The position numbers and the translations under genes were made by a program. Source: Malus domestica (Eukaryota > Streptophyta > Magnoliopsida > Rosales > Rosaceae). Taken from it: DNA of 64,000 bases. Position 1 is the stretch's first letter. Every line of letters starts with the position of its first letter. This document shows positions 5,898 to 32,177 of the stretch, one piece after another. The stretch is from the NCBI RefSeq assembly GCF_042453785.1, contig NC_091671.1, positions 35,045,001 through 35,109,000 of the forward strand, in the 5' to 3' direction. Below the pieces are notes generated by a model. That model was not told where the DNA came from, did no database searches, and saw nothing but the letters and a program-made list of their open reading frames with translations.

Positions 5898-6262
5898 TGT
5901 TAAAAAACCAGACCTACAATGGTCTCAACCTACCAGTGCCGCAATGGTGATGGAAGCAATGGAGAAGATGAGTGAAGAGAGAGAGAGAGAATATTCTATT
6001 AGATTTTTCAAAGCATACCGTTACAAATATTTCGGAATAAAAAATATAGCTACCACTAGCATTCCTCCCTAATGAGTGACTGCCAACTGGACACTTAACA
6101 ACTAATTAAATTGACTCCCCAAAAGACTTAGGCTATTACAATCCAACCCCAATTCTTTAGACTCTTACAATTAGCCCCAAAATCCCTTATAATTTAGTCC
6201 CATACGACTAATAATAATTTATCCTTGTGACTGAAACAATCACTCGAACTTAGTTCATAACA
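5898..6262 (-). repeat. gypsy 3' LTR (365 bp)
   Basis: Starts TGTTA and ends TAACA on the plus strand. It aligns along nearly its full length with 16471-16800 plus 23927-23951, including the run from ATGGAAGCAATGGAGAAGAT to the LTR end. It contains a short GA-rich tract at about 5980-5992 that is shorter in the other LTR. Confidence 0.9.
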
Positions 6263-6265
6263 ATA

Positions 6266-6276
6266 CTCCCCCCCTT
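6266..6276 (-). other. polypurine tract
   Basis: The minus strand reads AAGGGGGGGAGTATTG immediately before the 3' LTR. This is the expected position and composition of a plus-strand primer for reverse transcription. Confidence 0.75.
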
Positions 6277-6298
6277 CGAACAACCTTGTCCTCAAGGT

Positions 6299-7480
6299 TC
6301 AAAGTGGAAAATCTGGAAACTTATTCTTGAGCTCATCGAAATCCTCCCAAGTTGCATTAGCTTCCTCTTGGTCATTCCATTGCACCAGCACTTGTACACC
6401 AGCAACACTACCCTTTTTGTACATCCTTCTAGCAAGAATTGCTTGAGGAATGTTATGAGCCAACCCATCTTCTATGACTTGAGGCAACACATATTGTGGA
6501 GTGATTGCATAACCTAGTTGTCTCTTGAGGCAGCTCACATGGAAGATAAGATGAATCTTGGTTTTTGCAGGGAGTTTTAGCTTGTAAACCACCATTCCAA
6601 CCTTCTCCACGATTTCATAAAAGCTATAGTACCTTAGTTGTAGCTTATGGTAGCTATGTGGAGCTAGAGCTTGTAACTGATATGGCACCAATTTCAAGTA
6701 GACCAACTCTCCAACCTCCAAATGCATTTCAATTCTCTTTCTGTCACTATATTGCTTCATTCGATTATGTGCTACTTCCAAGTTGATCTTCAACACTGAT
6801 AACACCATATCTTTGTCCAATAAACCTTGTTCCACAACTTCTACCTTTGCAGTCCCTAGCTTGTAAGGGATTACTTGAGGTGGGGGGTAAACATACATTA
6901 ACTCAAAAGGGGTATATTTTAAGGAAGTGTGAAAGGAAATATTGAAGCACCACTCAGTCCATGGTAACCATTGAACCCATTTCCTAGGTTGCCCTCTCAC
7001 AAAGCATCTTAGATAGGTCTCCAAACACCTGTTCATTACCTCAGATTGCCCATTACTGGATCTCTGTCACTCACAATGGAACTAGGTATTCCATGAAGTT
7101 TGAAAATGTATTCCACAAAGAGTTGTGCTACTGAAGATGCAGTGTAAAGATGTGACATAGGCACAAAGTGAGCATACTTTGAAAGCTTGTCCACCACCAC
7201 CCATATCACAGATTTTCCCTTGCAATTGAGTAGACCTACTATGAAATGCATGTTGATATCACTCTATATTCTCTATGGGATTGGAAATGGTTGCAACAAC
7301 ACATGAGGTGACATATTTTCGATTTTGTTTTGTTGACAATTTGGGCACTCAGGTATGAATTTCTGAATGTCATGTTTAATGCCCTTCCAATAAAAACTCC
7401 TCTTGATCCTTTGATAAGTCTTGAGCACACCTTGATGACCTGAAGATGGAGTGGAGTGATGTTCTTCAATAATTTTTGCT
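6299..7480 (-). pseudogene. gypsy integrase with chromodomain-like tail
   Basis: About 7480-7290 holds the HHCC zinc-binding module (EEHHS ... GHQG ... CPNCQQNK), readable only by changing frame. Frame 7036-7251 is the start of the catalytic core (FIVGL ... SVIWVVVDKLSKYAHF ... SDRDPV). The residue before FIVGL is His where the first catalytic Asp of the DDE triad is expected. Frame 6299-7036 holds the core end (CLETYLRCF), TPFELMY and the chromodomain-like C-terminus. A one-base slip near 6299 breaks the usual LEDKVV ending. Several lesions, so inactive. Confidence 0.85.
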
Positions 7481-7560
7481 CTTTATTTAGAAGTAGGCCC
7501 TAACATAATTCTCTTCTTGTAACAAAGAAATCCATTATCAATAGAATACCTACCCAACTT

Positions 7561-8000
7561 TTAACTACTAGAACCATCTTGTAGGGACTGAGCAATCTCT
7601 TTCTTCTTCTCTATAATCCACTCATCCTGTTCATTGCTTTTCCTCAAGTCATCTATCCACCTAGCATAAGGGTAAGATATAGCAACACATTCAACATCCT
7701 TAGAGATCTTAGTGATAAATTCTTGCAAACAATGAGCATCCTGCAATCTTGACAGTGCATCAGCAACCATGTTTTGAGCCTTTTGCTTATATTGAATCTC
7801 ATAATCATACCCCATGAGTTTTGAGACCCACTTTTGTTGAAAGGGAATACTTGCCCTTTGGCTTAAGAAATACTTGAGACTGTTGTGATCTGTCTTAATA
7901 ATAAGATGTCTCTATTGCAAGTAATTCTTCCATTTTTTGATTGCATACACTATAAAAATTAGTTCTTTCTCATAAGTGGAGAGTGCTTGATTCGTCAGAC
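7561..8000 (-). pseudogene. gypsy RNase H region
   Basis: Minus frame 7561-7815 begins MGYDYEIQYKQKAQNMVADALSRL, the end of the gypsy RNase H domain that degrades the RNA of the hybrid. The stretch 7815-8000 continues the same domain in other frames, with several stops. It joins RT upstream and a linker to integrase downstream. Confidence 0.8.
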
Positions 8001-9262
8001 CTAGAGCTTGGCTAGTGAATGTTGTAGGTCTCCTCCTTGTTGAAGAATAGCTCCAATGCCACAACCTGATGCATCACACCCTAATTCAAATGGCTTGGAG
8101 AAGTTTGGAAGGGCCAAGACTTGTGGTAATGCCATAATGGACTTGAGTTTTTCAAAAGCCTGTGCAGCTTCCACTCCCCAATTGAAACAATCCTTTCTGG
8201 TTAACTGATATAAAGGTTGACATATTTTCCCATACCCTGGAACAAATTTCCTGTAATACCCAGTTAAGCCTAGGAATCCTCTTAGCTCTTTGACAGATTT
8301 TGGAGTAGGCCACTCTTGTATAGCTAACCATTTAGAAGGATCAGCTGCAACCCCCTTGTGAGAAACAATATGACCTAGGTATTCTACACTTGATTGTCCA
8401 AATGAACATTTGGATTTCTTGAGATACAACTGATTTTCCCTTATAACCCCCAATACTACCTGCAAATATTGTAAGTGTTCATTCCAATCCTTGTTATACA
8501 TCAGAATGTCATCAAAGAATACTAGCATAAACTTTCTGAGATAAGCTTGAATATATCATTCATTAGACTTTGACAAGTGGGTGAAGCATTGGTAAGCCCA
8601 AAAGGCATCACCAAGAATTCATAGTGACCCTTATGAGTTCTAAATGCTGTTTTTTTCCACATCACTAGCTTTCATTAGGATTTGTTGTATCCAGACCTCA
8701 AATCTAGCTTGGTAAAGTACCAGGCACTATGTAATTCATCCAACAGATCACCTATGAGAGGTATGAGGTATTTATCCTTAATGGTTAAGGCATTAAGCTC
8801 CCTATAGTTTATACATATCCTCCAACTACCCTCTTTTTTCTTGACTAGGAGCACAAGAAATGAGAAGGGATTGTGATTTTGTCTAATAAACCCTGCAGCT
8901 AATAGCTCTTGCATTGCCTTTTCAATTTCATTTTTCTGCAATGGACCATAGTGATATGGTCGAATGTTTGGGGTAGGCACTTGGAAAATATCCTCAAATT
9001 GCTCCAATACAACCTGGAGTTCATGTAATTGCTCCACATTTAAGTCATGGAACTCCATTTTCCCACCCTCCATAGAATAGAGGAATAGTCCTAAGTTAGA
9101 ACTACCAAGCTCTTTATCAATGTGCTGCAGAGAAGTTTCTTGAATCAACTATGAAGGGGTCACAGTGTGAGAGAGTTTGTATTTATGTTGATCTTTAGTA
9201 AACTCCATTGTAAACAACTGGAAGTCCCATAACATAGGACTCACAGTTGATAACCATTGCTG
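8001..9262 (-). pseudogene. gypsy reverse transcriptase
   Basis: Frame 8675-9148 includes QNHNPFSFLVLLVKKKEGSWRICINYRELNALTIKDKYLIPLIGDLLDEL and LDLRSGY, the fingers and palm of a gypsy RT. Frame 8001-8528 starts at [11 protein letters not shown], the FDD form of the YxDD catalytic motif, then covers connection sequence to FELGCDASG at the RNase H start. The segment between (8528-8675) is frameshifted, and about 10 residues are missing after PNIRPYHYGP. The 5' end (WLSTVSPMLWDFQ) is cut at 9262 by an LTR unit and continues at 13564. Confidence 0.88.
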
Positions 9263-10935
9263 TGAAATCACGTTCTCGGATTTCACTGTTATAATCTACG
9301 TAATTGTATTATTGAGATTTTTATTTTTCGGGAATTTATATTAATTTATTTGAATTTAGATTTTAATTAAACTAGTTACAAAGAGTGAAGTTTGGAAACT
9401 AATTATTTAAAATCTGTCGATCGTTCATGTCACAATTTATATTTTTAAATAGAGCTCGATCTCACGAATGCATAGGCACAAACCGTTCGTGAAACAGCGC
9501 CATAACGAAGGAGTTATTAACGTTTAAAATTAATGATATTTCGGTATTTTTACCTCAATCAAGAAGGCTCCAGATTTTATGGAGCACTGAGATTATGCCA
9601 CATGTGTGGCTAACATAAAAAGAAAAGAAGAGATGGACGGACAGGATGAAAAGGAAAGGAAAGAGAGAAGAAATGAGAGATGCGGGAGAGAAAATGAGAG
9701 ACAAGACCAATCAAAAAGGGAGGAGGAAAATGAGAGGACGAATGAGGGAGAGTGAGGGAAAAGGAGAGAGGTGAGATGCACGGAATCAACCCCAACCCAT
9801 GGCACCTGTGACCCGAACCGTTATCCCGGTGACATTCCGTCGCTTATCCGCCATTTTTTTCTGACGAATTGGACCGATCTACCACCCCCAATATTGTTCT
9901 AGTCCTTCCCTCTTCCATTTCCACCTAAAATTATAATGAAATTGGTTTTATTTTGGTGGAATACTACCCGATGGGAAACATTGGTGCACGGCGGCAATTC
10001 CGCCGTTTTTGCAGCTATTGTCAACGACCACCACCCTTGAGGCCTAAAACATAGCCTAAACACTAGTAGGGGCGTCAGAGCATCCATGGAGTGGAATCGA
10101 AGTACACTCAAAATCTAGGGTTCTGGTGGGTTCAAGGTAATTCCGAGCACTTTCCGGCCGAAAGACAATTTGGCCCAGGTATGAAACTTACTCTACTCAT
10201 TGAGATCTACAATTATGTAAATTTTCGTAATTTTTGGAAATAGTTGAATTTTCCGGCAACTCGGGGTGGTCGACCACCACCCTCAGCGGCGCATGCCCAA
10301 TGGGCCAACAATGTCTTTCTAAGTTCAATTAGATGCCTTGATTTCATAATTGATATTCGTAAGAAGTGGTTTGGTTGTTTGAACTTAGTTTCATTATGAT
10401 ACATTACTTGAACAATATATGAATTGACGATACGACCGTTGGATCATATTGAAATTTTAATATGTTGTTTTATAAGCATAATGTGAGTCTTTGGAAGTTA
10501 CGGATCTGAAATCTGATGTGCGGATCTTATGGATCAAATTACGTAGGGTTGTGGGCACCACCGTTGATCGAGAGTTCACTTTTGGTCAACATGTCTCAAA
10601 TCGTTTGTAAAACTAAAATTAGTATTAATAGAGGCTCAGTGAGGCTTTGTGGACCTATCTAGGTGAGTGACTTTAATATATGTGATATGGTGATTACCCG
10701 ATTCTTTATATTAATATCCTTTGTGGATATGACTTGGTTTTATAATTGTTTTTTCTATTAAAATGTGACTTAGTTTTATAAATGTGTTTTTTGTTAAAAT
10801 GTGATTCTTTTATAATTGGCCATCGATCTATTTTTATTAAATGTGAATTGATTCATGGATTGGTAATATTTGTGAAAATAATGATTTGAATTGCATATTG
10901 AAATGTTTATTAAATTGAGGGCTAGTAGGAGACCA

Positions 10936-11260
10936 TGACCCTGTTTGGTGAATCCGCGATAAGGGATCACTAGTGGTCTTGCTTGGTTAATCCGCGATAG
11001 GGGACCATATTATTTATGGATCATGATTGGTTAATCCGCGATAGGCGATCCTTATAGCCATACATACTTAGAAGTGATCATGCTTGGTTAATCTGCGATA
11101 GGTGATCACTGCCTAACAGTTCCGTAAGTGTGACTCTGCTTGGTTAATCCGCGATAGGGGACCATGATCTTGCTTGGTTAATCCGCAATAGGGGACCATA
11201 TTTTCTATGGATCATGCTTAGTTAATCTGCGATAGGCGATCTTTATATCTTTGGTATGGC

Positions 11261-11313
<53 letters not shown>

Positions 11314-11474
11314 AGGGGTGATCATACTTGGTTAATCCGCGATAGGTGATCACTGCCTAACAGATGCATATGAGTGACTTTGCTTGGTTAATCCACTATA
11401 AGGGGTCACTGCCTACTTGGTTACTACAGGAGTGGTTCTACTTGATTAATCCATGATAGGAGGGCCACTTCCTG
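10936..11474 (+). repeat. array of about ten hairpin units with constant core TTGGTTAATCCGCGATAGG
   Basis: Ten copies of the core (variants allowed) lie at about 10943, 10982, 11027, 11082, 11139, 11172, 11217, 11328, 11382 and 11441. The flanking arms change from copy to copy yet mostly remain complementary within a copy: TGGTC/GACCA (10974-10978, 11003-11007), GGATC/GATCC (11018-11022, 11047-11051), AGTGATCA/TGATCACT (11073-11080, 11103-11110), GTGATCA/TGATCAC (11318-11324, 11347-11353), AGTGAC/GTCACT (11373-11378, 11405-11410), AGTGG/CCACT extended by CAGG/CCTG (11427-11474). The fifth copy is not complementary and the sixth has one mismatch. The pattern suggests selection, or copying, of a folded unit. 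Confidence 0.75.
11264..11310. repeat. (CA)n microsatellite
   Basis: Uninterrupted CA dinucleotides, about 23 copies, between hairpin units seven and eight of the array. Confidence 0.95.
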
Positions 11475-12411
11475 TTTGGTTACATATGTAGGCTTCGGCC
11501 GAACTGCGTCCTTCTAACCCTAGTTTTTAATGCACATATGAACGATGGTTTTTGAGAATCCTGGTGGTTTGAATAGGAAAATTTGTTGGATGTCTAGGTG
11601 ACTCATTCGGAGCTGTTAGAGACTGGACTATGTTTTCATAATTACGAACTTATCTTTGAGGTTTATAAATTATGATCGATGGTCTTTCTTTTTATTGAAT
11701 ATCACATACTTGTATTATTGTCACTCACCTGAGCTTTGCAGTTTATCTGAGTTCTGGTTGGCCAGTGCACCATTCTCATGATGTAGGCACTGATTATATA
11801 TATGATAGATTTGGGTAGATTACGAGAAACCGCTAGATATTTTGGATTCTGTTGAGTGGTTCGGAATCCTTGCTCCTGTTCATTTCCATAAGGTTCGTCA
11901 AGAACCCTAGATTCGAGTGAATGGGAATTACCCACAAAAGGCCTTGTGAATATTATTTAGATTCACCATGTTTAATTACTTATAATTCAAATAGGGAATT
12001 ATGTAGAGTTCCTTGATTAGATACGTGAAATGATATGTATTCGCATTGATTGATTTATGTAGTTAAATGCTAAGATTATGCATCTTTGAGTCATGAATTG
12101 ATTAATCGATGGGATTGTGGAATGACGTTGGATATGATTGTTATCATTATGATGATTTTAGTTGATCAGTGTGGCTTGAGAATAATATTGTGCTTCGTTG
12201 GTTATTTGATATGTTACATGCTGTTGATGGAGGTATCATGTTGCAAATAAAGTGAATTATGGGATTATTACTTGAGTGTAGTGAATGGTGAACTACGAAT
12301 GGCTTGATCACTATTTAGGGTACGTAGGTAGTCTAACGAAAAATGTTAGATGTAGCCATAAAGTATACAAAAAAATTTTATGCGATTCGATTCTTGAGTT
12401 ATGCTTCGTAC

Positions 12412-13461
12412 CAGAGCCGGCGTTAGGGGAGTGTGACCGGTTCGATGGCACAGGGCCCCAAAATTTTGGGGGCCCCCAAATTATTATTTTTTGAATATAA
12501 TAATATATATAAAATAATATTATATAAAAATAATAAATAAAAATATTAATCAAATCAAAATATATACATATAAAAATCGGATGGGTCAAAATCAAATCAA
12601 AATATATACATAAAAAAAATTTGATGGGCCAAAAGCCATCAGACTACTACCTATCAAAGTCAGACTACTAGTACCTAAAAACCATTAGACTACCTACAAC
12701 CTGTATGAAAATATATAAAAAAATAATTAACAAAGGGCAAAGTTAATCAGAGAAGCCCACTGACCGAGGCAAACAATTCAAAGACAAAGTATTCCTCTCA
12801 CGCCAAAATCCCATCACTACGTTCCACTTTTCTTCTTTCACAGCAAACTACCAGTACCAGAGCATCGAAATCCTAGACGTTGTGCCAGTGTCCCAGACTC
12901 CCAGTGTAATTCCCTTCTCTTTTCATTCCATTGTTATATTTCCCACAAATTATTAAACCCTAATTTATAAATTTATGAAATTAAAGAGAAACGTCCAAAT
13001 TATCAGAGTGATGGAGACTTCGATCAAAGCATGATATTTACTAATTTAAGTATATTGACTCGAAATTTGAAGATTTGGGTATTTTTCATCTATAATGATT
13101 TTTTTTTGTACTTTTCAGGGGAAAATCAAGAGAAGAGCAGTCACAAAAAATCGCTAGACGCACACGTATTATGGACTATCAGGTTTCATCGTTAAGTGAA
13201 GCTTTAGTTCTAGACTTTTTTAAGTTTTGTTTATTTGGTTTCTTTAGATTGAACTTATTGTTACTTATTAGTACTATGGTTATTTTGTAGCTTTCTTTGC
13301 ATTTAATAGTATTTAGAAATAGATGGTTAGTTAGTTTTAAAGTTTATTTTGATATTGCTTTTTAGCATCAATACGTTGTTCAATTTTTTTAAGATGTCTT
13401 ATAAGAAGGGCCCCTTTTATGAATTTCGCACAGGGCCTCCAAAATCTCAGAGACGGCCCTG
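12412..13461. mobile_element. hAT DNA transposon, non-autonomous
   Basis: Perfect 8-bp duplication CTTCGTAC at 12404-12411 and 13462-13469. Imperfect inverted ends: CAGAGCCGGC at the left, and CAGGGCCGTC on reading the right end inward. The 8-bp duplication and CAGNG ends define hAT. The sub-terminal G/C runs near both ends (CAGGGCCCC and CAGGGCCTCC) fit the same family. No transposase frame is visible in the 1,050 bp. Confidence 0.9.
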
Positions 13462-13558
13462 CTTCGTACATATTTCAGAGGTGGGATATGTTGGAGATAT
13501 GGTTACTTGGTGACGTCACGTGTCGATCCTGGACGTAGGTCGGGATCGAGGCCTGACA

Positions 13559-13912
13559 ATTGCACCCCTAAGACAACATCACACCCCCAAAGGCAATGCA
13601 AAAAGATCAACAGTGCATTAAAACCCCCTACAGAGAGTGAAGTAGCTTTGCAGCAACCAGAACTTCTAACTTTTCCCCCATCTGCTATCATTACCTCAAA
13701 GTGTTTGGTAGGAGAAACTGGGTTGCCCCAATGCTTCAAAAGTTTTGAGTCTACAAAATTATGAGTGCTACCTAAATCTAACAGGATCCTAACACTATGT
13801 CCATTAATTTGCCCTTCAACCTTATAGTTTGAGTTGTTTGGCCACCCATTTAGTGCCATAAAAAGCACAAGAACTGAGTTCCATTTGTTGACACTCAATG
13901 TGGTCTTCAAAG
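13559..13912 (-). pseudogene. gypsy aspartic protease, 3' end displaced
   Basis: The minus frame includes INGHSVRILLDLGSTHNFVDSKL. The retropepsin active site is normally D(S/T)G; here it reads DLGSTHNF. The domain continues to CDVVLGVQ at about 13564, where the ATTGC duplication and LTR unit interrupt it. Its continuation WLSTVSP is at 9262. Residues past GVQ in this frame come from the inserted LTR. Confidence 0.85.
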
Positions 13913-14229
13913 GGATTCAATTCTACTTGATCAGAACATAGCACATCCAGCATCAAAAGCTGTTTTAATCCATACTTATGCCCTTTAACCCACTTATCAC
14001 TACAAAACCAGCATTCTCCTATCTCTTTTCTTCTGGAGACAATTTCTTAATAGGGAAGTTATTCAAATGAGGGACAGTGTGAGGAATAACCGTGGTGGTA
14101 GTGGATTAAGATTTGGCTGCAGTGGTATATTTTTGAGTAGGAGGTCTAAGCTTAGCAAGTTTTGCATCTAATTGCATCGCAATGGAAATTGCATCATGGA
14201 CACTAATAGGTTTCAATAGCTTCACATCG

Positions 14230-16440
14230 AACTTCAATTCCTTCTTCAACCTTCATATGAAACAACTTTTCAGCAGAATCAGACAAACCTTGGGTGATCT
14301 AGTAGCTAAACGCTTGAATTCATAGATGTAGTCACGAAGGCTACATGTATGTCCCAATTTGAAGAATGCTTCAGCATTATCTTCAAACTCAGAAGGTCCG
14401 AACTCCATACACAGGGCCTTAGTGAACTCTAGCCAAGTTGGGGCAATATTCAGGCAATCCAACCAACGACACCAGTGGAGGACCTCACCTTCAAGATGAA
14501 AGGAGGCAATGAGAACTCACTGAGCCTCAGGGATGTTGTAAAAGGAAAAGAACTACTCCGCCTTGTAGATCCAAGCAAGGGGGTGATCACCCTTAAGGAA
14601 TCTTAGGAATTCGATGCGCTGAGGCCATAGTGGGCCTGGAGAAGGTCCGCCCCCACCCGAGTTAGGACTCAAAGGGCGAGTGTAACGCCTCGCCCTTTAA
14701 ATATTTATTTTCAGGAAATAGTTTGATGATAGGCCCAAATCAAACTCTTGTTTAATTTGCTACCATTACACATTATTCTTTAATTAAAATTCCTTAGTTA
14801 CTCACAAAAGCCTACCACCAAATTTACTTATAAAAAACATACGTTTATTATTTTTAGTTTAACACCAATTTCTCTTCTTTACTCTAATTCCCAACAAGAG
14901 GTCAAAACTCAATTAATTAACATCATTTATTTTATAGCTGCATCTAACTTCACGTTAGACTGCCTATGTACCCTTCAAAGGGATCAAGCCATTTGTAGTT
15001 CACATTTCATTTTCAATTCATTTTCGAGACATTCAAGTAAAAACAATAACCCACATTGGGTTTAATAATTGAAACACATCAATTGGATACCAAATTCATA
15101 TGTAGAATATCAAAATTTTCACAAAATGGTAGCATCCAACCACTGGCCACGTGTCGCCGGGAGTGGTGGTTTTAGGCGAACGGAAACTCAATTTTTCGAC
15201 TAATTTCAAAAATTACCAAATTTCACAGAAATGTATATCTCAATGATTAGAGAAAGTTTCATACTTGTGGCCAAGTCCAATTTGGCCGGAAAAATCCCCA
15301 AATTCATTCGAACCTGCTGGAAACCCTAAGATGAGTGTTATTCGATTCGACTTACTCGATGTTCCAACACCCCTACAACTGACTAGTTCTTGTTCCTAGG
15401 TCCAAGGGGAGTTGATTAAGGGTGGTGGTGGGTGGTGAAACTCGCCGGAACGGCGAAATCGCCGTTGAACACCTCTAGTCACCCGCATCGTTTTTACGTG
15501 ATTTTTAACTTAAAAACCCACAATCTTGAGTGAAAATGGTAGAGGGGATGTTGGAGAAGAGGTTGTAGATATTGAATGATGGTAATTCGAAGGAGGAAAT
15601 GGAAAAAATCATCGGAGTGGGTCGGTTGGGTTGTGCGGGTGCTCGGCGACGGGAAGGTTAGGAACTTCCCTTATTTTTTTCCCCCTTTTTCTAATTTGTT
15701 CCTCCCCCTCCCCCTTTTTCTGATTGATCCCAATCTGTCCTTTTTTCTCCTTCTCTTTCCATCAAAGTCACACACGTGGCATTCCCTTTTCTCCAGATTT
15801 TCTGGAACCTTCCAACTTAATGTCAAAATGACTATTTTGCCTTCAACTTCTATCGCTAATAACTTCTTCGTTATAACTCTATTTCAGGAACGGTTTTCGC
15901 CTACGCGCTCATAGGATCATCCTCTGTCAAGAAATCCAATAAAATATATGAGAATAAAATACGTCCTCATATAATTACGTTAAGTCAACTAGGGGCATTT
16001 CCGTTTTTTCCACTTAACGATAAATTTCACAACATAATTTATAATAATTTTTGGAAACAAAACTTTAAAAGCTCTCAATTCAATTTTACATACCCATAAA
16101 TCAATTTATTTTCAATTTTTATCCGCATACTCATATATTTAAATTTTTAGGGTATTATAGCGAGAAAGTTGCTCCAGTTCATGCGGAGGTGGACGATCGA
16201 TAAGTGGTTAAGTTGAGGAATCTTCACCGGACCTCTGGCAACTCATCTCATGCCGAAACTGTTCGAAGTAGAGAGGTAAGCGAGCATTAAGGTGAGTATT
16301 GAGCTTGTTGTCAAAAGCAATGTTAACAGCGGAAGCGATGAGAGAAGGCAAATTCGCAAGGAAAGCTTCAAGGGTGGGGACACGGGCGTCCATGGTGGTG
16401 AAGCGTGTAGTGTTGGTGTAACGGGGCATACATAGCAAGG
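14230..16440 (-). pseudogene. gypsy gag, interrupted by a solo LTR
   Basis: The 5' part (16208-16440) carries MDARVPTLEAFLANLPSL and EQFRHEM. The 3' part (14230-14675) carries LDCLNIAPTWLEFTKALCMEFGPSEFEDNAEAFFKL ... LRDYIYEFKRLA, the retrotransposon gag core. The solo LTR at 14681-16159 lies between them. Stops occur near 14560 and in the linker to protease, and the CCHC-like region around 14030 is degraded. Confidence 0.85.
14681..16159 (-). mobile_element. solo LTR (1,479 bp) inserted in gypsy gag
   Basis: Identical GCGAG at 14676-14680 and 16160-16164. Ends TGTAACGCC and GGTATTATA are slightly decayed forms of TGTAATACCC...GGGTATTACA. No coding sequence. It carries the two-hairpin motif (14941-15002) also seen in the solo LTR at 30868-32177, with related but not identical flanks, so the two belong to the same broad LTR group. 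Confidence 0.88.
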
Positions 16441-16458
16441 AAAACCAATTATCGAATA

Positions 16459-16470
16459 GGGTGATACCAA
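16459..16470 (-). other. gypsy primer binding site
   Basis: The minus strand reads TTGGTATCACCC directly after the LTR end (TTAACA). The first eight bases of TGGTATCAGAGC, the initiator tRNA-Met primer complement, are present. Confidence 0.7.
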
Positions 16471-16800
16471 TGTTAAAAACCATACCTGCAATGGTCTCAA
16501 CCAACCAATGCAGCAATGACGATGGAAGCAATGGAGAAGATGAGTGAAGTGAGAAAGAATATTCTATTAGTTTTTTCAAAGCATACCGTTAAAAATATTT
16601 TGGAATAACAAATATAGCTACCACCAGAATTCCTCCCCAATGAGTGACTGCCAACTGGACACTTAACCAACTAATTAAATTGACTCCCCAAAAGACTTAG
16701 GCTATTACAATCCAACCCCAATTCCTTAGACTCTTACAATTAGCCCCAAAATCCCTTACAATTTAGTTTCATACTACTAATACTAATTTATCCTTATGAC
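16471..16800 (-). repeat. gypsy 5' LTR, first part
   Basis: Aligns with 5898-6228 of the 3' LTR. At 16800 the match stops at CCTTATGAC and resumes at 23923 with TGACTGAAACAATCACCCG to about 23951. The shared TGAC is the likely target duplication of the LINE inserted between. Confidence 0.9.
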
Positions 16801-18622
16801 CGATGAAAATGGTGAAAGGTATAGAAAAGCGAAGCAAGAGGCGAAGAAAGCTGTCAGAGAAGCTAAGTTAGCGGCTTACGACGATATGTATAAACGACTA
16901 GATACCAAAGAAGGAGAGTTGGATATCTATAAACTATCTAGAGCAAGGGAAAAGAAGACAAGGGACCTAAACCAAGTGAGGTGCATCAAGGATGAGGATG
17001 GAAAGGTTCTTGCTACAGAGAACGCGGTTAAAGACAGATGGAGAGGTTATTTTCATAATCTTTTCAATGAAGGACATGAAATGAGTGCTTCTTTAGGGGA
17101 GTTGAGTAACTCAGAAGAGTGTAGAAACTACTCTTTTTATCGTCGAATCCGGAAGGAAGAAGTGGTTGTAGCTTTGAAGAAGATGAAGCATAAAAAAGCA
17201 ATAGGCCCAGACAATATACCAATCGAAGTGTGGAAACTTTTGGGAGAGACAGGTATAACATGGCTCACTGACCTTTTCAATAGGATTTTGAAAACGAAGA
17301 AGATGCCAAATGAGTGGCGAACGAGCACTTTGGTGCCTATCTACAAGAATAAGGGCGACGTACAAAATTGCATGAACTATAGGGGTATTAAGCTAATGAG
17401 TCATACAATGAAGCTCTGGGAGAGAGTCATTGAGCATAGATTGAGGCAAGAGACACGGGTTTCGGACAACCAATTTGGGTTCATGCCAGGGCGCTCAACC
17501 ATGGAGGCAATCTATCTCTTACGAAGATTGATGGAAAGATATAGAGATGGGAAAAAGGATTTACACATGGTCTTTATAGATTTGGAAAAAGCGTATGATA
17601 GGGTCCCAAGAGACATTCTTTGGAGGATTTTAGAGAAGAAAGGAGTACGAGTAGCATATATCCAAGCTATAAAGGATATGTATGAAGGAGCAAAGACTGC
17701 CGTAAGAACTCATGAAGGACAAACCGAAAGCTTTCCCATAACTGTAGGATTACATCAAGGCTCATCCTTAAGTCCTTACCTTTTTGCGTTGGTAATGGAT
17801 GAGTTAACAGGACATATTCAAGATGATATTCCTTGGTGTATGCTTTTCGCAGACGATATAGTGTTGATAGATGAAACTCAGGAAGGGGTAAATGCAAAGC
17901 TTAACCTTTGGAGAGAAGTGTTGGAATCTAAAGGTCTTCGCCTAAGCCGATCAAAGACAGAATATATGGAGTGCAAGTTCAGTGCAAATGGAGGCCAAAA
18001 CGAGTTAGGGGTGAGGATCGGAGATCAAGAAATACCAAAGAGCGACCGTTTTCGTTACCTAGGATCTATCTTGCAAAAGAACGGAGAATTAGATGGAGAT
18101 CTCAACCATAGAATACAAGCTGGATGGATGAAGTGGAAGAGTGCATCCGGCGTGTTGTGTGACCGCCGTATGCCACTGAAGCTCAAGGGAAAATTTTATA
18201 GGACGGCAATAAGGCCGGCGATGCTGTATGGCACAGAATGTTGGGCGGTGAAACATCAACACGTACACAAAATGGGTGTAGCGGAGATGAGGATGCTTCG
18301 TTGGATGTGTGGGCACACGAGAAAGGATAAGATTAGGAATGAGGATATCCGGGGTAAAGTAGGAGTAGCCGAAATTGAAGGAAAGATGAGAGAAAATCGG
18401 TTACGGTGGTTTGGCCATGTGCAAAGAAGGTCTACTGACGCTCCGATTAGAAGATGCGACTATGGGACAGAGGTTCAGGGCCGAAGGGGTAGAGGAAGAC
18501 CTAGGAAAACTTTGGAAGAGACTCTAAGAAAAGACTTAGAGTACTTGGATCTAACGAAAGACATGACACAGGATCGAGCACAATGGCGTTCTAAGATTCA
18601 TATAGCCGATCCCACTCAGTGA
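16796..18622 (+). CDS. RTE-type LINE reverse transcriptase, truncated ORF
   Basis: A 608-residue open frame. The first ATG (16796) lies in the gypsy LTR flank, so the first residues are not native. In order: a basic N-terminal segment, the RT domain from about residue 115 ([22 protein letters not shown]...[47 protein letters not shown]), then a long C-terminal region with [24 protein letters not shown] is the metal-binding catalytic motif. The apurinic endonuclease that precedes RT in complete RTE proteins is missing. The TGA stop uses the first bases of the neighbouring LTR block. Such enzymes copy their RNA at a nicked target. Without the endonuclease it is unlikely to act alone. Confidence 0.88.
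16801..18619 (+). mobile_element. RTE-type LINE, 5'-truncated (copy A)
   Basis: Begins abruptly after TGAC in the gypsy LTR, lacks the endonuclease domain, and ends at CCCACTCAG about 30 bases short of the family's 3' terminus as seen in copy B (23881-23922). The next bases belong to an LTR-derived block (18620-23306). The frame is open throughout, unlike most transposon frames in this window, which suggests a young copy. Confidence 0.85.
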
Positions 18623-19689: not shown

Positions 19690-21930
19690 CGGAGCTTCAG
19701 AAATCGAAGAGGCGCCTGCTCAGAAATCGAAGAGGCGTTTGCTTTCTCAAAAGCTGGGCTGCTTAGAGATCACGAGGGTTGATCTTAGAAATCGAAGAGG
19801 CGTTTGCTTTCTCAAAAGTTGGGCTGCTCAAAGACCAAGAAGGCCGATCTCAGAAATCGAAGAGGCGCTCGCTTTCTCAAAAGCTGGGCTCCCCAGAGAC
19901 CACGAGGGCCGATCTCAGAAATCGAAGAGGCACCTACTTTTCCAGCCTTGTCAGCACTTGTCACACGCACACTCAGCTTTGCGGAAATTATGGGCATTCT
20001 GTCGAAGACTTCTGGGGAAGTAGAAAACACATGAATCTTACTGTTCAATCACCCACTTCCCACACGCAACAATAGCTCATGGGTACCACATATAACTTTG
20101 CCAAAGTTCTCTGCCAAAGTTGAGCACGTGAAGCTTGCAGCTCCCACTACATCGCTCTGACCAAGAAGGGTAAAAGAATAGCAAAGAAACAGCATTAACA
20201 AAGTTTAGACCCATAAATTTTGAAGGTCTAGCTACCATATTATTACCCACAAGGGTAAAGGAACAGTACCACTGCTGGATAATTGGAAAGTCCCTGTGTG
20301 TCAACCTCTGTGCTTCGTGGCAAGGTAGACTAGCAAACATGCCCAACCTTTACTCACATTCGAGAAAACACTCCCAATAAGATTGCTTGCTCCAAAATCG
20401 AAGAGGCACCGTCCTCCGAATCTCGAGAGCCAGACTTCCAACATGACTACTTTCTTAAAAATCGAAGAGAGGGTAAAGGAACAGTACCATTGCTGGATAA
20501 TTGGAAAGTCCCTATGTGTCAACCTCTGTGCTTCGTGGCAAGGTAGACTAGCAAACATGCCCAACCTTTACTCACATTCGAGAAAACACTCCCAATAAGA
20601 TTGCTTGCTCCAAAATCGAAGAGGCACCGTCCTCCGAATCTCGAGAGCCAGACTCCCAACATGACTACTTTCTTAAAAATCGAAGAGAGGGTAAAGGAAC
20701 AGTACCATTGCTGGATAATTGGAAAGTCCCTATGTGTCAACCTCTGTGCTTCGTGGCAAGGTAGACTAGCAAACATGCCCAACCTTTACTCACATTCGAG
20801 AAAACACTCCCAACAAGATTGCTTGCTCCAAAATCGAAGAGGCGCCGCCCTCCGAATCTCGAGAGCCAGACTCCCAACATGATTACTTTCTCAAAAATCG
20901 AAAAGACACTGCTCCCCGAATCTTCGAGAGCCAGACCCCCAACATGATTGCTTTCTCAAAAATCGATGAGGCATCGTTCTCCGAATCAATTGAAGAGGCG
21001 CTCGCTTTCTCAAAAGCTGGGCTGCTCAGAGACCACGAGGGCCGATCTCAGAAATCGAAGAGGCACCTACTTTTCTAGCCTTGTCAGCACCTGTCACACG
21101 CACACTCAGCTTTGCAGAAATTATGGGCATTCTGTCGAAGACTTCTGGTGAAGTAGAAAGCACATAAATCTTACTGTTCAATCACCCACTTCCCACACGC
21201 AACAATAGCTCATGGGTACCACAGATAACTTTGCCAAAGTTCTCTGCCAAAGTTGAGCACGTGAAGCTTGCAGCTCCCACTACATCGCTCTGACCAAGAA
21301 AGGTAAAAGAATAGCAAAGAAACAGCACTAGCAAAGTTTAGACACATAAATTTTGAAGGTCTAGCTACCATATTATTACCCACAAGGGTAAAGGAACAGT
21401 ACCACTGCTGGATAATTGGAAAGTCCCTGTGTGTCAACCTCTGTGCTTCGTGGCAAGGTAGACTAGTAAACATGCCCAACCTTTACTCACATTCGAGAAA
21501 ACACTCCCAACAAGATTGCTTGCTCCAAAATCGAAGAGGCACCGTCCTCCGAATCTCGAGAGCCAGACTCCCAACATGACTACTTTCTCAAAAGCGAAGA
21601 GAGGGTAAAGGAACAGTACCATTGCTGGATAATTGGAAAGTCCCTATGTGTCAACCTTTGTGCTTCGTGGCAAGGTAGACTAGCAAACATGCCCAACCTT
21701 TACTCACATTCGAGACAACACTCCCAACAGGATTGCTTGCTCCAAAATCGAAGAGGCACCGCCCTCCGAATCTCGAGAGCCAGACTCCCAACATGATTAC
21801 TTTCTCAAAAATCGAAGAGACACTGCTCTCCGAATCTCGAGAGCCAGACCCCCAGCATGATTGCTTTCTCAAAAATCGAAGAGGCATCGTTCTCCGAATC
21901 TCGAGAGCCAGATACCACAGACCACTTTTT
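19690..21930. repeat. complex tandem-repeat field in the LTR block
   Basis: Two levels of repetition. Short units of about 57 bp built on AAATCGAAGAGGCG...TTTCTCAAAAGCTGGGCTGC occupy 19690-19950 and recur near 21000. A 218-bp unit containing GGATAATTGGAAAGTCCC and GTAGACTAGCAAACATGCCC repeats with exact 218-bp spacing at about 20346, 20564 and 20782, and again near 21479 and 21690. The block 19860-20350 is also duplicated about 1.14 kb further on. The small frames repeated here are by-products. Confidence 0.85.
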
Positions 21931-23306
21931 CAAAGTGCTCTGACAGAGTTAAAACATGTGAAACTAGCAGCTCCCACTACCGTGCTATGACCAAGCAGGG
22001 TAAAGGAATAGCATTACTACTTATTGTTAGGGAGACTCCTATATATGTCGACCTCCATCCCCAACGGACAGGCAGACCTGCAAAAATGCTCAACCCTTCA
22101 TCATATCTGAGAGGGCACTCCCAACGAAGCCTTTCGAAATATTCAGCTTTCTTTCCCCCCGATAATACCTCTGCAAACAAGCTATACTAGAGCAAGAATA
22201 TCTCATATCATCAGGGTTAAAAGCAAGAGTATCCCATATCATGCTTTTTCCCTGTCTTTTCCTTTGGCCTTGTTTTTACCTGCAAGACAAGGAGAAAGAG
22301 AGCAATCAGTCAGCACTTGGAATCAAGCTTCCAGCCAGGAACTGACTGCCTGGAACCCCTTACCTGATTACTTACCTGACATTGCTCTCGAGTACTCATC
22401 TTCAACATCTTATGTTTCCAGGGAAGATTCCACATCTGCTTGAGGAACAGATAGGGCAAGTGCGAAGGATACAAGGAAGCATGTGGAGACAAGCGTAACA
22501 GCACACGTGCCGATACATCCATTACTCTGTCAAAAGCAAAAGTATCCCATATCAGCAGGGTGGAACGTACTATAGATTTGATGGACTTGTTTTGACCCTC
22601 AAATTCTTCAGTCGGCCTTATATTCTGGAGGAAACCAGAAAACCCTCCAGCTCAGTTCAAGAATAAGCCTGTGGAAAGTTACTTCTTCAAAAGCAAAAGT
22701 ATCTCATATCATCTCTTCTCATTTTTCTTCTCTTTATCCTTCATGCTGCTGCAAGATGGGGAGAAGGTGAACAATCAGTCGGAGCTCTGATTGCTTACCT
22801 TGTCTGTCACCTCTTTCAGCAGACCCCCTAGCTCGGCAACTTGGGGGACTCCTACTACATGGTTTGTATCGCGCTTGACCAAGCCTGAAACTACAAGTAA
22901 GCTTCAAGTGAAATTGATACATTACCTTGTGCATCTCCACCAGTTAAAGATACCACCCCTGGATGGAGGAAGAGTACTTCCAGAGAAGATGCCACATCTA
23001 CCTATGAGACAGATAAGGCAAGTCAAGACGACACCACACTCCGATATTTAGAAGTTTAGTGATTACGAGATCATTCTCCCACAATATTTCCTAATGTCAT
23101 TTGTACTAAATCATTCACTTGTACTCACTAAAGGAGAGCTTGAACCTATGTACTTGTGTAAACCCTTCACAATTAATGAGAACTCTTCTATTCCGTGGAC
23201 GTAGCCAATCTGGGTGAACCACGTACATCTTGTGTTTGCTTTCCTATCTCTATCCATTTATATACTTATCCACACTAATGACCGGAGCAATCTAGCGAAG
23301 ATCACA

Positions 23307-23922
23307 AAAAGCGACCGTTTTCGCCACCTAGGATCTATCTTGCAAGAGAACGGAGAATTAGATGGAGATCTCAACCATAGAATACGAGCTGGATGGATGA
23401 AGTGTAAGAGTGCATCCGGCGTGTTGTGTGACCGTCGTAGGCCACTGAAGCTCAAGGGAAAATTTTATAGGACGGCAATAAGGCCAGCGATGTTGTATGG
23501 CACAGAATGTTGGGCGGTGAAGCATCAACACGTACACAAAATGGGTGTAGCGGAGATGAGGATGCTTCGTGGGATGTGTGGGCACACGAGAAAGGATAAG
23601 ATTGGGAATGAGGATATCCGAGGTAAAGTAGGAGTAGCCGAAATTGTAGGAAAGATGAGAGAAAATCAGCTCCGGTGATTTGGACATGTGCAAAGAAGGC
23701 CGACTGACGCTCCGGTTCGAAGATGTGACTACGGGACAGAGGTTCAGGGCCGAAGGGGTAGAGGAAGACCTAGGAAAACTTTGGAAGAGACTCTAAGAAA
23801 AGACTTAGAGTACTTGGATCTAACGGAGGACATGACACAAAACCGAGCGCAATGACGTTCTAGGATTCATATAGCCGACCCCACTTAGTGGGAAAAGGCT
23901 TTGTTGTTGTTGTTGTTGTTGT
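23307..23922 (+). mobile_element. RTE-type LINE, 3' end (copy B)
   Basis: Repeats the last 585 bp of copy A at about 95% identity by eye, with in-frame stops (for example before FGHVQRR). It continues to the complete family 3' end: CCCACTTAGTGGGAAAAGGC followed by a TTG repeat tail (about 23901-23924). A simple-repeat tail instead of poly(A) is typical of RTE elements. It joins directly to the second part of the gypsy 5' LTR. Confidence 0.88.
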
Positions 23923-25019: not shown

Positions 25020-27520
25020 TGTCACAGCCCGTTCCAAAATATTACATTCGTGGCTGTGAATGGACGAAATTGCCCTTAAGAAATACTAAGTATGTGAAGC
25101 TCAAGTTGATAATTATCTAGGTTCCTAAGTTTTGAAAATAAAATGGAATTTAATAAGGATGGAACTTAGATTTTTAGGTTAAAATTTTGTGGTTTAGAGT
25201 TGGGGATTGGAAAAGGACCACGTGGGATCCCCATTCCTTATTTCCCTCCCCATTTCCCGTATACTGTCCTTCATACTCTCTTTCTCTTCCTCAGACCTCA
25301 CTCTCTCTCTCACCCTCTCGAACACACGGGCAACCATCAAAACCACCTAAAACTATTACCAACGCCGGATTTAAAACCACCATTGCACTCCTGAGGACTC
25401 CACGATCACGTAGGTACCAGTTTAAGGTAAGTTTCACTTCGAAAACCCTAGTTTCTAAAGTTGCCGTGAATGTGTACTGTTCATGAGCTTTGAATTGGTT
25501 GATTTTTAGGACAATCCAAGCTCATGGTGAGCTTAGTGAGGTCCCAAGGAAGCTCGGAGTGCTTCGTTGGAAGGATTTGGACGTCGGGATCACGAGGGTT
25601 AAGTTTGGCCGGTTTTGCTTGGATTTTTCCGGTGAGATTTAGTTGTTTTTGAAGCTTAAAAGTAGTATATTGTAATTCTACATGTTGAGGGCTTTAAATT
25701 GATATATTATACGAAGAACATGGTTGAGAAACGAAGGAGAACGAAGCATTTGAAAATTCCCCAGTTTTCCGGCCACCGGAAAAACCAGTCCGGCGAACCC
25801 GCGAGGAAGAAGGTGCGCGTGGGCGCGCGTGGACCCGTGCCTTCCTTGGCGCGTGGGGGCGCGTGCTACAGTAAACAATTATTTTAAAAATATGTCGACG
25901 TCCGTGACGTCGAGTAGATCACTGTGGTATATTCATATACACAAATTGAGCACCGTATGAGAAAGTTATTAAGGATTGTTGGTTAGGTGTTCGAATAACG
26001 TTTTATAGTTTTCGCATTAGGTGAAAATGTGAATTGATGATCCGACCGTTGGATCGTTACCAAACTTTAATACGTTGCAATACGTAATGTTTGAGGATTA
26101 TTGGAACTTACGGATTGGGAATCCGAGTTACGGATCTTCCGGAATTGGAGTTGTAAGTTCATAAAATAAAATGTTAACCGTCACTTAGTTTTGGAAATTG
26201 ACGGAGATCCGACCGTTGGATGGTAATGAAATTTTAGGATGTTATCCTAGAGATATATTGTGGACCTTTGGAAGTTATGGATTTAAAATCTGAGTGGTGG
26301 ATCTTCCGGATTGAACTACGTAGTGACGTATTTTATATAAGTTATATATTCTATCGATATGAATTCTGAGGTTGGAATTGATTATTGTTTTAGGCGCCGA
26401 TCGTCATGACGCCTTGGCGTATTGTGCTAGGGAGTTGTAGGGCGAACTCCAGGTGAGTGGGCAGTTTTGTTTTCCGTATATATATATACTTGACGTTTTC
26501 CCAGAAATTGAAATTGAATGAAAGTATGCTTTAAATGCAATGTATAAAATTATATGAAAAGTATATTGAAATGTGAATTGAGATGCCATGCATAAAAGTA
26601 TATGAAAAGTATATAGAAATGTGAATCGAATTGCCATGCATGAAATGATATGAAAAGTATGAAATTGAGATATGATGCATATGAATGAATGGTGCGGCGG
26701 ACGCACAGGTGAGTATCAGGTGAGTATTTAAATACTGATATGATGATGTTAATGTATATTGAGCTCAAATCCTGCACCATGGTTTAGTGCTTATAGTATT
26801 CACCGCATCGCACGCTCGCCTTGGATCCAAGTAGATGCTGGTCGCACAGTCCACGCGGAGTGGGTGCGACGGGCCAGTCGAAGAGTGTTAGTGAGATTTC
26901 GACTGGTGGGTGACCTTAGATTATGTGCACAGATGATTGATGAGAAAGCACTAGAGCGTAACTTGTGTGCAGAAGGCCGGACAGGTCACAGAGGTGACTC
27001 CGGCAGAGTGAGAGTGATAGATTTTGAGCTCTAGGTTCAACCGTACATGGCTATTAGAGGGCCTCCGGTTGATTACTTTCTTGCACCTGATATGATTATT
27101 GTTGATGCATCCATACTTAACTGTTGAATTAGACATGGCATGGCATGATTGATAAAGAAAAATGTTGAGATAGTAAAAATGAAGTTTGAGAATATATATG
27201 TATATTTATATTTTACATTTCTGGGAAAGTATACAGGTTTTACGGAGAGGGGTTACAACGTTTTGAGAAATGTTTGGATTTGGAAAAGAATTGTTTTACT
27301 GACCCACTCAATTTTGGTTTTGCGCCCCTCCAGGTTCAGGAATCACAAAGGTGTGGTGACTACGAGGAATTCGACGGTGTTCTGACAGATTGGACAAAAT
27401 TAGGACTCACCTTCGGGTGTATCAACTTATAAATTGTATCTTAAAGCTTCCGTACTGTGCAAATGGTCACGTCACTCTCACGTGACGGCCAGCATGCCCT
27501 CCTTCGGGACGGGGTGTGTC
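25020..27520 (+). mobile_element. solo LTR (about 2.5 kb)
   Basis: Ends TGTCACAGCCCGTTCC and GACGGGGTGTGTC, with ATAAT at 25015-25019 and 27521-27525. A terminal A seems lost or shared at the right end. No coding domains. Internal near-repeats around GATCCGACCGTTGGAT (26040 and 26207) with a following ...GAACTTACGGAT / ...GAAGTTATGGAT resemble 10432-10530 in the LTR unit at 9263 and, inverted, 31110-31300 in another solo LTR, so these LTR families share modules. Three strong hairpins lie at 26841-27003. Confidence 0.75.
26841..27003 (+). repeat. three consecutive perfect-stem hairpins in an LTR
   Basis: Hairpin 1: GTCGCAC (26841-26847) with GTGCGAC (26864-26870), plus inner CCAC/GTGG across a 3-base bulge. 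Hairpin 2: CCAGTCGAA (26874-26882) with TTCGACTGG (26898-26906), nine perfect pairs. Hairpin 3: CCGG-ACAG-GTCAC (26977-26989) with GTGAC-T-CCGG (26994-27003). Confidence 0.7.
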
Positions 27521-30867: not shown

Positions 30868-32177
30868 TATAACGACCCAAAAATTCTTATTTGGAAGCTA
30901 AAATCCGGTGTAGGCCAAAATAAATTCATGATCAATTTCCACGATATTAACCATAATTATTTCTTTCCTTAAAAGAAATCCAACACAAATAAATTTGGAT
31001 TATTTTGTGGCCGCATCTAACCATCTCGTTAGACTGCCTACGTACCCTACGAAGGGGCTAAGCCATTCATAGTTCACATTACGCTTACAACATACTAAAA
31101 TTTCATTACGATCCAACAGTCGGATCTCAACCAATCACAACAATCGAGTGGCGGTCGACGTTTTATTTTACAAACTTACAAATCCAATTTGGGAAGATCC
31201 GTACGTCGGATTCCCGATCTGTAAGTTCCTAAGGTCCTCAAATATTACGTATTATAATGTATCCAAGTTTGGTGGCAATCCAACGGTTGGATCGTTGGTT
31301 CCTAAACTGATCAAGCACTGGATCGTAGTGAATTTAGATTCAAATGATCAACCTACATCAAATGATTATCAAATCTAAAATCAAGACATCTAATATGGCT
31401 TAAAAATAACATTGACGTCCATCTGGCCATGCGCCCCTGCAGGTGGCAATCAGCCGCCCCGATTCGTCGGACAAATTCAATTATTTCTAAAAATTCTCAA
31501 AAATTACAGAAATGAAGATCTCATTGAGTAGAACAAGTTTTATACTTGTGGCAAGTCCAATATGGTCGGGAAATGGTCCAATTTGGCTTGCAACCGCCAG
31601 AAAACCTTAGAATAGGTGTTCATTGATTCGCCACCTCCGATGCTCCGCCGACCCTACAACTGGTTGAGCTTTGTTCTAGGCCTCAAGGGGAGTCTAATGG
31701 TGGTGGTAATTGGTGGAAAACGTTTCACAAATGGTTGATCACCGTCGAGCTCACTCGAACATGTCGGTGGAATCCCTCGCAAAATCATGGCCAAACACTT
31801 CGAGTTTGGTTGAAAATGGATGGGAAAGTGGCACGGAAATGATTTGGTAGTGGTGGGGAGCTTTTGATTGCTTGAAAAATGCCACGAGGCTGTTAGAAAT
31901 GGATGCCGGCCAAAGCGGGTTGGGATGAAGAAACGGGTATAAGGGAAAGATGTTTTTGTTGGGCATTCCTTCCCCTCTCTTATTTTCCCTCATGTTCCCT
32001 CTCCGATTCGTCAACCTTCTTCCTCTCTCTTCTTCTAATTCGGATCACTCTCCCATTTCCTCTCCCGAACTTCCTAATTCTTCTTCTTTTTCCTCTTCTG
32101 CCATCAGGCATTTTTCTTTTCTTTTCTTTTTTTTTTCCCACCAAACACATATATTTTAGATTTTCCAGGGCATTACA
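30868..32177 (-). mobile_element. solo LTR (1,310 bp) inserted in gypsy RNase H
   Basis: CAAAC duplicated at 30863-30867 and 32178-32182. Ends TATAACGACCC (decayed TG) and GGGCATTACA. Carries the two-hairpin LTR motif at 31012-31076. The pyrimidine-rich stretch 31960-32150 yields long frames that are compositional only. Confidence 0.9.

Follow-up and report, generated by a model that had tools for sequence, protein, structure and literature searches.

The window, a 64,000-nucleotide stretch of Malus domestica DNA, contains a tandem array of ten units that share one loop sequence and differ in the arms on either side of it. Changes on both sides of the stems that keep the pairs exceed shuffled and slid controls, and we are reasonably confident that the stems are a covarying structure. 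On balance, the sequence leads us to favour the reading that the array is a sense-strand cis-acting RNA element of LTR retrotransposons that are protein-less where they were read through.

The array and its setting in the window

The window DNA is plant-type and is packed with nested retroelements. Those around the array are the following:

5898 to 16803, minus strand: older gypsy chromovirus, host to the solo LTR insertion; its LTRs (5898-6234 and 16471-16803) are 91% alike
9261 to 13558, plus strand: solo LTR carrying the array, TGTGAAATC...CCTGACA, with a 5-bp target duplication ATTGC at 9256-9260 and 13559-13563
12412 to 13461, no strand assigned: hAT-like DNA element inside the solo LTR and outside the array, with an 8-bp duplication CTTCGTAC on both sides

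Pieces of the chromovirus match aspartic protease, reverse transcriptase, RNase H and chromodomain. A sequence-only reading of this DNA had put the array inside an LTR, and that LTR is now placed, with its ends and its target duplication. It measures 4.3 kb in total, or 3240 bases without the nested hAT-like insert, and the array lies about 1.0 to 1.6 kb upstream of its end. Two shorter related solo LTRs (14681-16159 and 30868-32177, both on the minus strand, with ends and 5-bp duplications located) align to both flanks of the array region; neither contains a core within five mismatches.

Some further features of the window may be recorded here. The near-palindrome GATCCRACNGTTGGATC, a further inverted repeat of this LTR group, occurs in or near related LTRs at 10429-10445, 26039-26055, 26206-26222, 31110-31126 and 31277-31293 (10 strand matches against 0.82 expected). 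At about 10175-10190, or about base 915-930 of the solo LTR, CCCAGGTATGAAACTT has by eye the look of a 5' splice site and has counterparts in both other solo LTRs of the window; given this splice-site-like sequence, the array could sit inside an intron. A reverse transcriptase frame of 608 codons, LINE-like in appearance, occupies 16796-18622, with a 94% fragment at 23305-23890. Tandem repeats of 217-218 bases lie at 20252-20906 and 21385-21820, adjoined by repeats of ~65 bases. Two minus-strand frames with legume-lectin and kinase domains are found at 40573-42723 and 51424-53820, and fragments similar to them between 48.7 and 59 kb.

Each array unit is laid out as arm, TGC, core and arm. As the sequence-only reading had noticed, about ten units have a common core: ten 19-nt cores with at most three mismatches lie at 10945-11460, where shuffling expects 0.02. 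The array as a whole covers 10934-11474:

10934 to 10971, plus strand: unit 1 (position 1), arms TGACCC / GGATCA with one C.A mismatch
10972 to 11009, plus strand: unit 2 (position 2), arms TGGTCT / GGACCA
11016 to 11053, plus strand: unit 3 (position 3), arms GGATCA / CGATCC
11073 to 11110, plus strand: unit 4 (position 4), arms AGTGATCA / TGATCACT
11129 to 11166, plus strand: unit 5, apparent chimera of a position 5 left half and the right half of an extra unit; 34-nt step (52 in other copies)
11163 to 11200, plus strand: unit 6 (position 6 type), arms TGATCT / GGACCA
11207 to 11244, plus strand: unit 7 (position 7), arms GGATCA / CGATCT
11264 to 11311, no strand assigned: (AC)24 microsatellite in the spacer between units 7 and 8
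11317 to 11354, plus strand: unit 8 (position 8), arms GGTGATCA / TGATCACT
11373 to 11410, plus strand: unit 9 (position 9), arms AGTGACTT / GGGTCACT
11427 to 11474, plus strand: unit 10 (position 10), arms AGTGGTT / GGGCCACT, outer CAGG / CCTG

The earlier count of eight units in ten with complementary arms was about right: six are exact as then quoted (units 2, 3, 4, 8, 9 and 10, the last in a register shifted by one base) and three nearly so. Within the inner six pairs there is one mismatch in unit 1, and units 6 and 7 each combine one mismatch with one wobble. Unit 5, already singled out as the rule-breaker, has two mismatches and one wobble. The same reading had held that simple tandem duplication does not explain the array, and this part is not supported in that form. 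Units 1-4, 5-8 and 9-10 correspond in a higher-order repeat, and duplication is part of the history of the array. The ten window units are therefore not ten independent witnesses.

In the window alone, arms pair with their own partners in 51 of 60 cases (six pairs, wobble allowed), where permutation gives 44.5 (p 0.004; values across nine settings ranged from 0.002 to 0.09). Paired cells amount to 78.8% against 69.7%, a level reached in 6 of 500 shuffles. The arm duplex energy gave p 0.002 on either strand, and the summed arm energy was reached in 0 of 2000 sets with shuffled flanks. When reduced to five unit types the test is weak, the true pairing ranking 2 to 28 of 120 over nine settings. 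Folding of the window array gave z -1.75 for the sense and +0.67 for the antisense strand. A search of the window against Rfam returned 0 matches at gathering score and, at a permissive threshold, three weak hits, all on the AC run.

Stem covariation and loop constancy among genomic copies

Copies of the array were sought in the window's own assembly, a single genome of 651 Mb in 19 contigs. The 17-nt core with at most two mismatches was found at 984 sites, compared with 18 for a reversed control; these counts are lower bounds, and the sites fall on 17 large contigs. A second version of the loop, GGTATATCCGCAATGGG, was commoner than the first (1272 sites against 11 for its control). One genome thus holds up to 2256 loop sites, any site two mismatches from both patterns being counted twice. 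The core gave one match in one contig among viral contigs, which by arithmetic is no more than chance, and a longer core gave no match in bacterial and archaeal genomes.

We fetched 52 regions on the strength of the core and without regard to the arms: 51 contain the 17-nt core exactly, and L015 contains it with one mismatch. From them came 458 units, each no more than five mismatches away from the 19-nt core; they fall into 55 locus-and-strand sets with 1 to 13 units apiece. Because regions and units were chosen by core match, loop conservation within copies is biased upward. Array position was assigned from unit spacing only, which placed 270 of the 458 units in ten positions (22 to 34 each). 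The spacing of the other 188 fitted no position rule, and these units were left out of the majority-arm, loop-divergence and outer-helix tests.

In the majority arms, all 60 of 60 inner pairs across the ten positions are formed, 56 of them Watson–Crick and 4 G.T on the sense strand, with no A.C. Across many genomic copies, then, arm changes between array positions are non-independent, in line with the earlier claim. When right arms were exchanged among the ten positions the mean was 47.7 of 60, and 60 was reached with a permutation p of 4.5e-5, which overstates independence since the ten positions are partly duplicates. A stricter count is that of six stem types, hand-picked, one of which (CAGTCC/GGACTG) turned up in just a handful of arrays: here 36 of 36 is reached by 2 of 720 pairings, one of them the true one. 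The shortest tree connecting these types, of which TGATCA is its own complement, contains eight two-sided changes.

All six pairs are formed in 291 of the 458 units; shuffles gave a mean of 102 and a maximum of 128 in 500. Among fully paired stems, TGATCA/TGATCA (69 units), TGGTCC/GGACCA (49) and TGACTC/GGGTCA (37) are the most frequent, followed by GGATCG/CGATCC (29), TGACCC/GGGTCA (15) and TGGTTC/GGGCCA (15). We also aligned units rich in deviant arms (of 397 distinct units 146 have unique arms, and 140 of these were used), a sample in which decayed arms are over-represented. Here 71.4% of cells were paired against 62.8%, and 162 cells were changed on both sides against 79.6; 0 of 500 shuffles was as high in either measure. 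The covariation score was above all 500 shuffles, and slid controls were 38-51% paired. Two of five measures on these units were null, namely the number of pairs changed on both sides (8 against 7.9) and further pair types (24 against 26.1).

The stem continues at positions 4, 5, 8, 9 and 10. Beyond a one-base bulge, an outer helix (TTAGG/CCTAA, GTAGG/CCTAC, GCAGG/CCTGT), sought after the sequences had been viewed, has 575 of 665 cells paired compared with 502 when shuffled (maximum 524 in 2000 shuffles). It is absent at the other five of the ten positions. Majority G.T pairs occur at positions 5, 9 and 10; G.T stands to A.C as 4 to 0 in the six inner pairs and as 7 to 2 when eight pairs per arm are counted.

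The sequence-only reading had proposed folding of the array as a check. RNAalifold returned five of the stem pairs and a small UGG/CCG helix within the loop. The whole-array folding energy was only mildly low, with a mean z of -1.55 for the sense strand, -0.92 for the antisense strand and -0.81 for a downstream control (n = 41 each). At -1.55 against -0.81 for the control, it was too weak to serve as main proof and was dropped in that role.

At every place of the 22-nt loop, all ten positions have the same majority letter. Mean divergence between positions is 0.000 in the loop, 0.363 in the arms and 0.631 in the next bases. Within positions, decay proceeds at similar rates (loop 0.073, arms 0.060, next bases 0.109). 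Among 1450 cells of decayed copies, taken from units with no more than two changes per arm, 67 were changed on the left, 63 on the right and 3 on both sides (2.9 expected), one of these still paired. Among single changes in dead copies, the division between G.T and A.C is 56 to 40. The two sides of a pair thus change independently in decayed copies, from which it follows that the matching arose while the element replicated. Stem matching and loop constancy were kept only during replication of the element.

The second loop version has TATATCC for TTAATCC and ATGGG for ATAGG. Three short stretches of this version (L064-L066) contain 23 units, and nearly all units of an array share the loop version. 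Their stems include TGATCA/TGATCA and TATGGTTC/GGACCATA, as well as ACAGTCC/GGACTGT in L064, and all six inner pairs are formed in 14 of the 23 units, as read by eye. Hybrid arrays (L014, L033, L038) have the TTAATCC loop in the first half and the TATATCC loop in the second. Loops that differ in concert along the array while the stems stay distinct could result from homogenisation, from growth out of few founder units or from a change of partner.

Units also recombine. At the place of unit 5, L027 and L034 show steps of 52 and then 34 nt, and a 34-nt step occurs somewhere in 13 of the 55 sets. In line with the suggestion that unit 5 of the window is a recombinant, it joins a left half of the position 5 kind to the right half of the extra unit found 52 nt on in L027 and L034, and it looks like the product of recombination across identical loops. 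Chimeras like it are present in L017 and L065.

The host element

The host of the array is an LTR retrotransposon, since both a TG...CA LTR with target duplication and a primer-binding site were found. The sequence TGGTATCAGAGC, which we take to be an initiator-Met primer-binding site, lies 7-8 bases past the LTR end in L022, L039, L041 and L058. In L045 and L046, apparently copies of a single duplicated segment, that place is taken by a three-base variant, and an exact match follows about 150 bases further along. Because the primer-binding site follows the LTR, the plus strand of the array is the sense strand. LTR end pairs numbered 19, from 17 loci: the 5-bp flanks are identical in 9 and differ by one base in 5, and the other 5 (three loci) run into the primer-binding site. 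Given the 9 identical and 5 nearly identical flank pairs, solo LTRs dominate this 17-locus sample.

The LTR is about 3.2 to 3.4 kb long in L022, L045 and L046. Behind an LTR with a primer-binding site, the distance to the next LTR is 402 bases in L022, about 877 bases in L045 and about 2.87 kb in L039. The internal region of L039 has no frame above 106 codons, and the frames behind the array in L058 contain no retroelement domain. Judged by frame lengths, the gag-pol coding region of an autonomous gypsy (Tekay-like) element was not found in the internal regions of the elements read through (L022, L045 and L039), and these short regions without long frames are the reason why we call the three elements non-autonomous. 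Maize Zeon-1 and rice Dasheng are likewise non-autonomous, with large LTRs and little inside; the present elements resemble them in their LTRs and in internal regions of about 0.4 to 0.9 kb (L022, L045, L046) or 2.87 kb (L039). We know of no hairpin array in Zeon-1 or Dasheng. In the search for an autonomous partner, L062, behind the primer-binding site of L022, proved to contain copia domains 3.1 kb on, past the next LTR start. L063, a 2-kb stretch behind another such site, resembles the fetched loci in no more than its first 46 bases.

The internal regions of L039 and L058 each contain a nine-unit array, which sits about 420 bases past the primer-binding site in L039 and about 680 in L058. 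The leader of L018 is 97% like theirs over 251 bases, and L018 probably bears an array in its leader as well; its fetched stretch contains no primer-binding site. No core was found in the fetched part of the L039 LTR, and the LTR of L058 also has four units of the second loop version. As its place, LTR or leader, depends on the copy, the array has been copied between them, together with about 80 bases of upstream flank.

LTR pairs are 87.2% identical over 617 columns in L022 and 97.3% over 182 in L045. With a substitution rate of about 4e-9, as given in PMC11197308, the uncorrected ages would be roughly 16 and 3 million years, respectively.

Alternative explanations and a possible role

Two-sided matching with free letters argues for a structure and not for a DNA word read by a protein, and judging from the pairing pattern the stem-loops probably act at the RNA level. 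The excess of G.T over A.C on the sense strand gives a lean towards RNA and is no proof, since the independent events are few. Each unit would fold into a short stem of six inner pairs that presents the same 22-nt loop, and in five of the ten positions five outer pairs would extend the stem across the one-base bulge. The repeated loop may then form a multivalent binding site for a trans factor, either the Gag of a helper element or a host RNA-binding protein, whose binding would serve packaging, dimerisation or export of the element RNA. The RNA form would be the thing selected. Packaging fits best among these uses because some copies carry the array in the leader, and we propose tentatively, from its sequence and placement, that the array may be used for packaging or recruitment.

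The strongest rival is foldback in reverse transcription. Hairpin-templated switching during this step, or earlier conversion, would copy arm from arm and leave a functionless palindromic minisatellite. Several observations fit such a neutral process: the number of units varies (1 to 13 in the 55 sets), units recombine inside identical loops (unit 5 of the window, L017 and L065), one loop version is common to all or nearly all units of an array, as homogenisation would give, and the matching is made only in the replicating lineage, where reverse transcription acts. However, foldback leaves unexplained why the majority letter never changes at any of 220 loop places, against a divergence of 63% in the next bases. 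It should also convert G.T to Watson–Crick pairs, yet majority G.T pairs stand at positions 5, 9 and 10. Decayed copies show no such correction, which bears on DNA-level processes only. We consider the neutral explanation unlikely.

An element acting as DNA, whether as a cruciform or as a set of protein-binding sites arrayed in the LTR promoter, is in our view rather improbable. A constant core in about ten copies does resemble an enhancer array, and the GGTTAA and GATA words of the loop presumably resemble plant GT-1 and I-box sites. Such repeats have precedents in the LTRs of tobacco Tnt1 and Tto1, where tandem enhancer repeats are protein-binding DNA repeats; like the units described here, they are a short repeated motif in an LTR. 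We know of no covarying arms in the Tnt1 or Tto1 repeats, and a protein site accounts for the core but not for arms that change on both sides in step. A cruciform, in turn, lacks a strand preference, whereas the sense-strand majority pairs favour G.T over A.C (4 to 0 and 7 to 2, from few events). Folded as single-stranded DNA, moreover, the window array does no better than shuffled sequence (z -0.44). No sign emerged of a protein that binds a cruciform, nor of a hairpin that spreads itself, both of which the sequence-only reading had raised.

Chance pairing inherited from an ancestral palindrome is very improbable: although TGATCA/TGATCA is self-complementary and is the commonest paired stem (69 of 458 units), TGACCC/GGGTCA, TGGTCC/GGACCA, GGATCG/CGATCC and CAGTCC/GGACTG differ from TGATCA on both sides at matched places, and random substitution starting from TGATCA/TGATCA reaches 36 of 36 in 2 of 300,000 and 0 of 300,000 trials under two substitution schemes.

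The favoured reading, a cis-acting RNA element, can be set beside known systems. The packaging and dimerisation region of yeast Ty1 RNA comprises cis-acting hairpins in which compensatory changes keep function, and a helper moves a mini element, according to PMC5454406. By analogy with Ty1, which likewise has hairpins in the RNA of an LTR retrotransposon, the array would work like a packaging or dimerisation region made of stem-loops. The Ty1 region has a pseudoknot and two hairpins with complementary loops, whereas the plant array consists of about ten tandem hairpins with one loop and is known here from sequence alone. In retroviruses, packaging relies on a group of adjacent stem-loops that lie in the leader, close to the primer-binding site. 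Two or three copies of the array similarly lie behind the primer-binding site; unlike the retroviral stem-loops, the window array lies in the LTR, and its near-identical loops are far more numerous. In the literature, the core letters were found in no paper, and among the matches listed there was no hairpin array in LTRs and no ten-fold array with one loop. To our knowledge, little is known of the cis signals of plant LTR elements.

More speculatively, a tandem array of about ten one-loop stem-loops might represent a new class of cis RNA element that recruits helper machinery for a protein-less plant retrotransposon, with the loop switching over whole arrays between subfamilies (TTAATCC...ATAGG and TATATCC...ATGGG) as if it tracked a trans partner. 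The array bears on the open question of how gene-less retrotransposons have their RNA copied. With its constant loop and covarying stems, the array would offer a bait for the missing partner protein, and comparison among related species would allow selection on the RNA to be tested directly.
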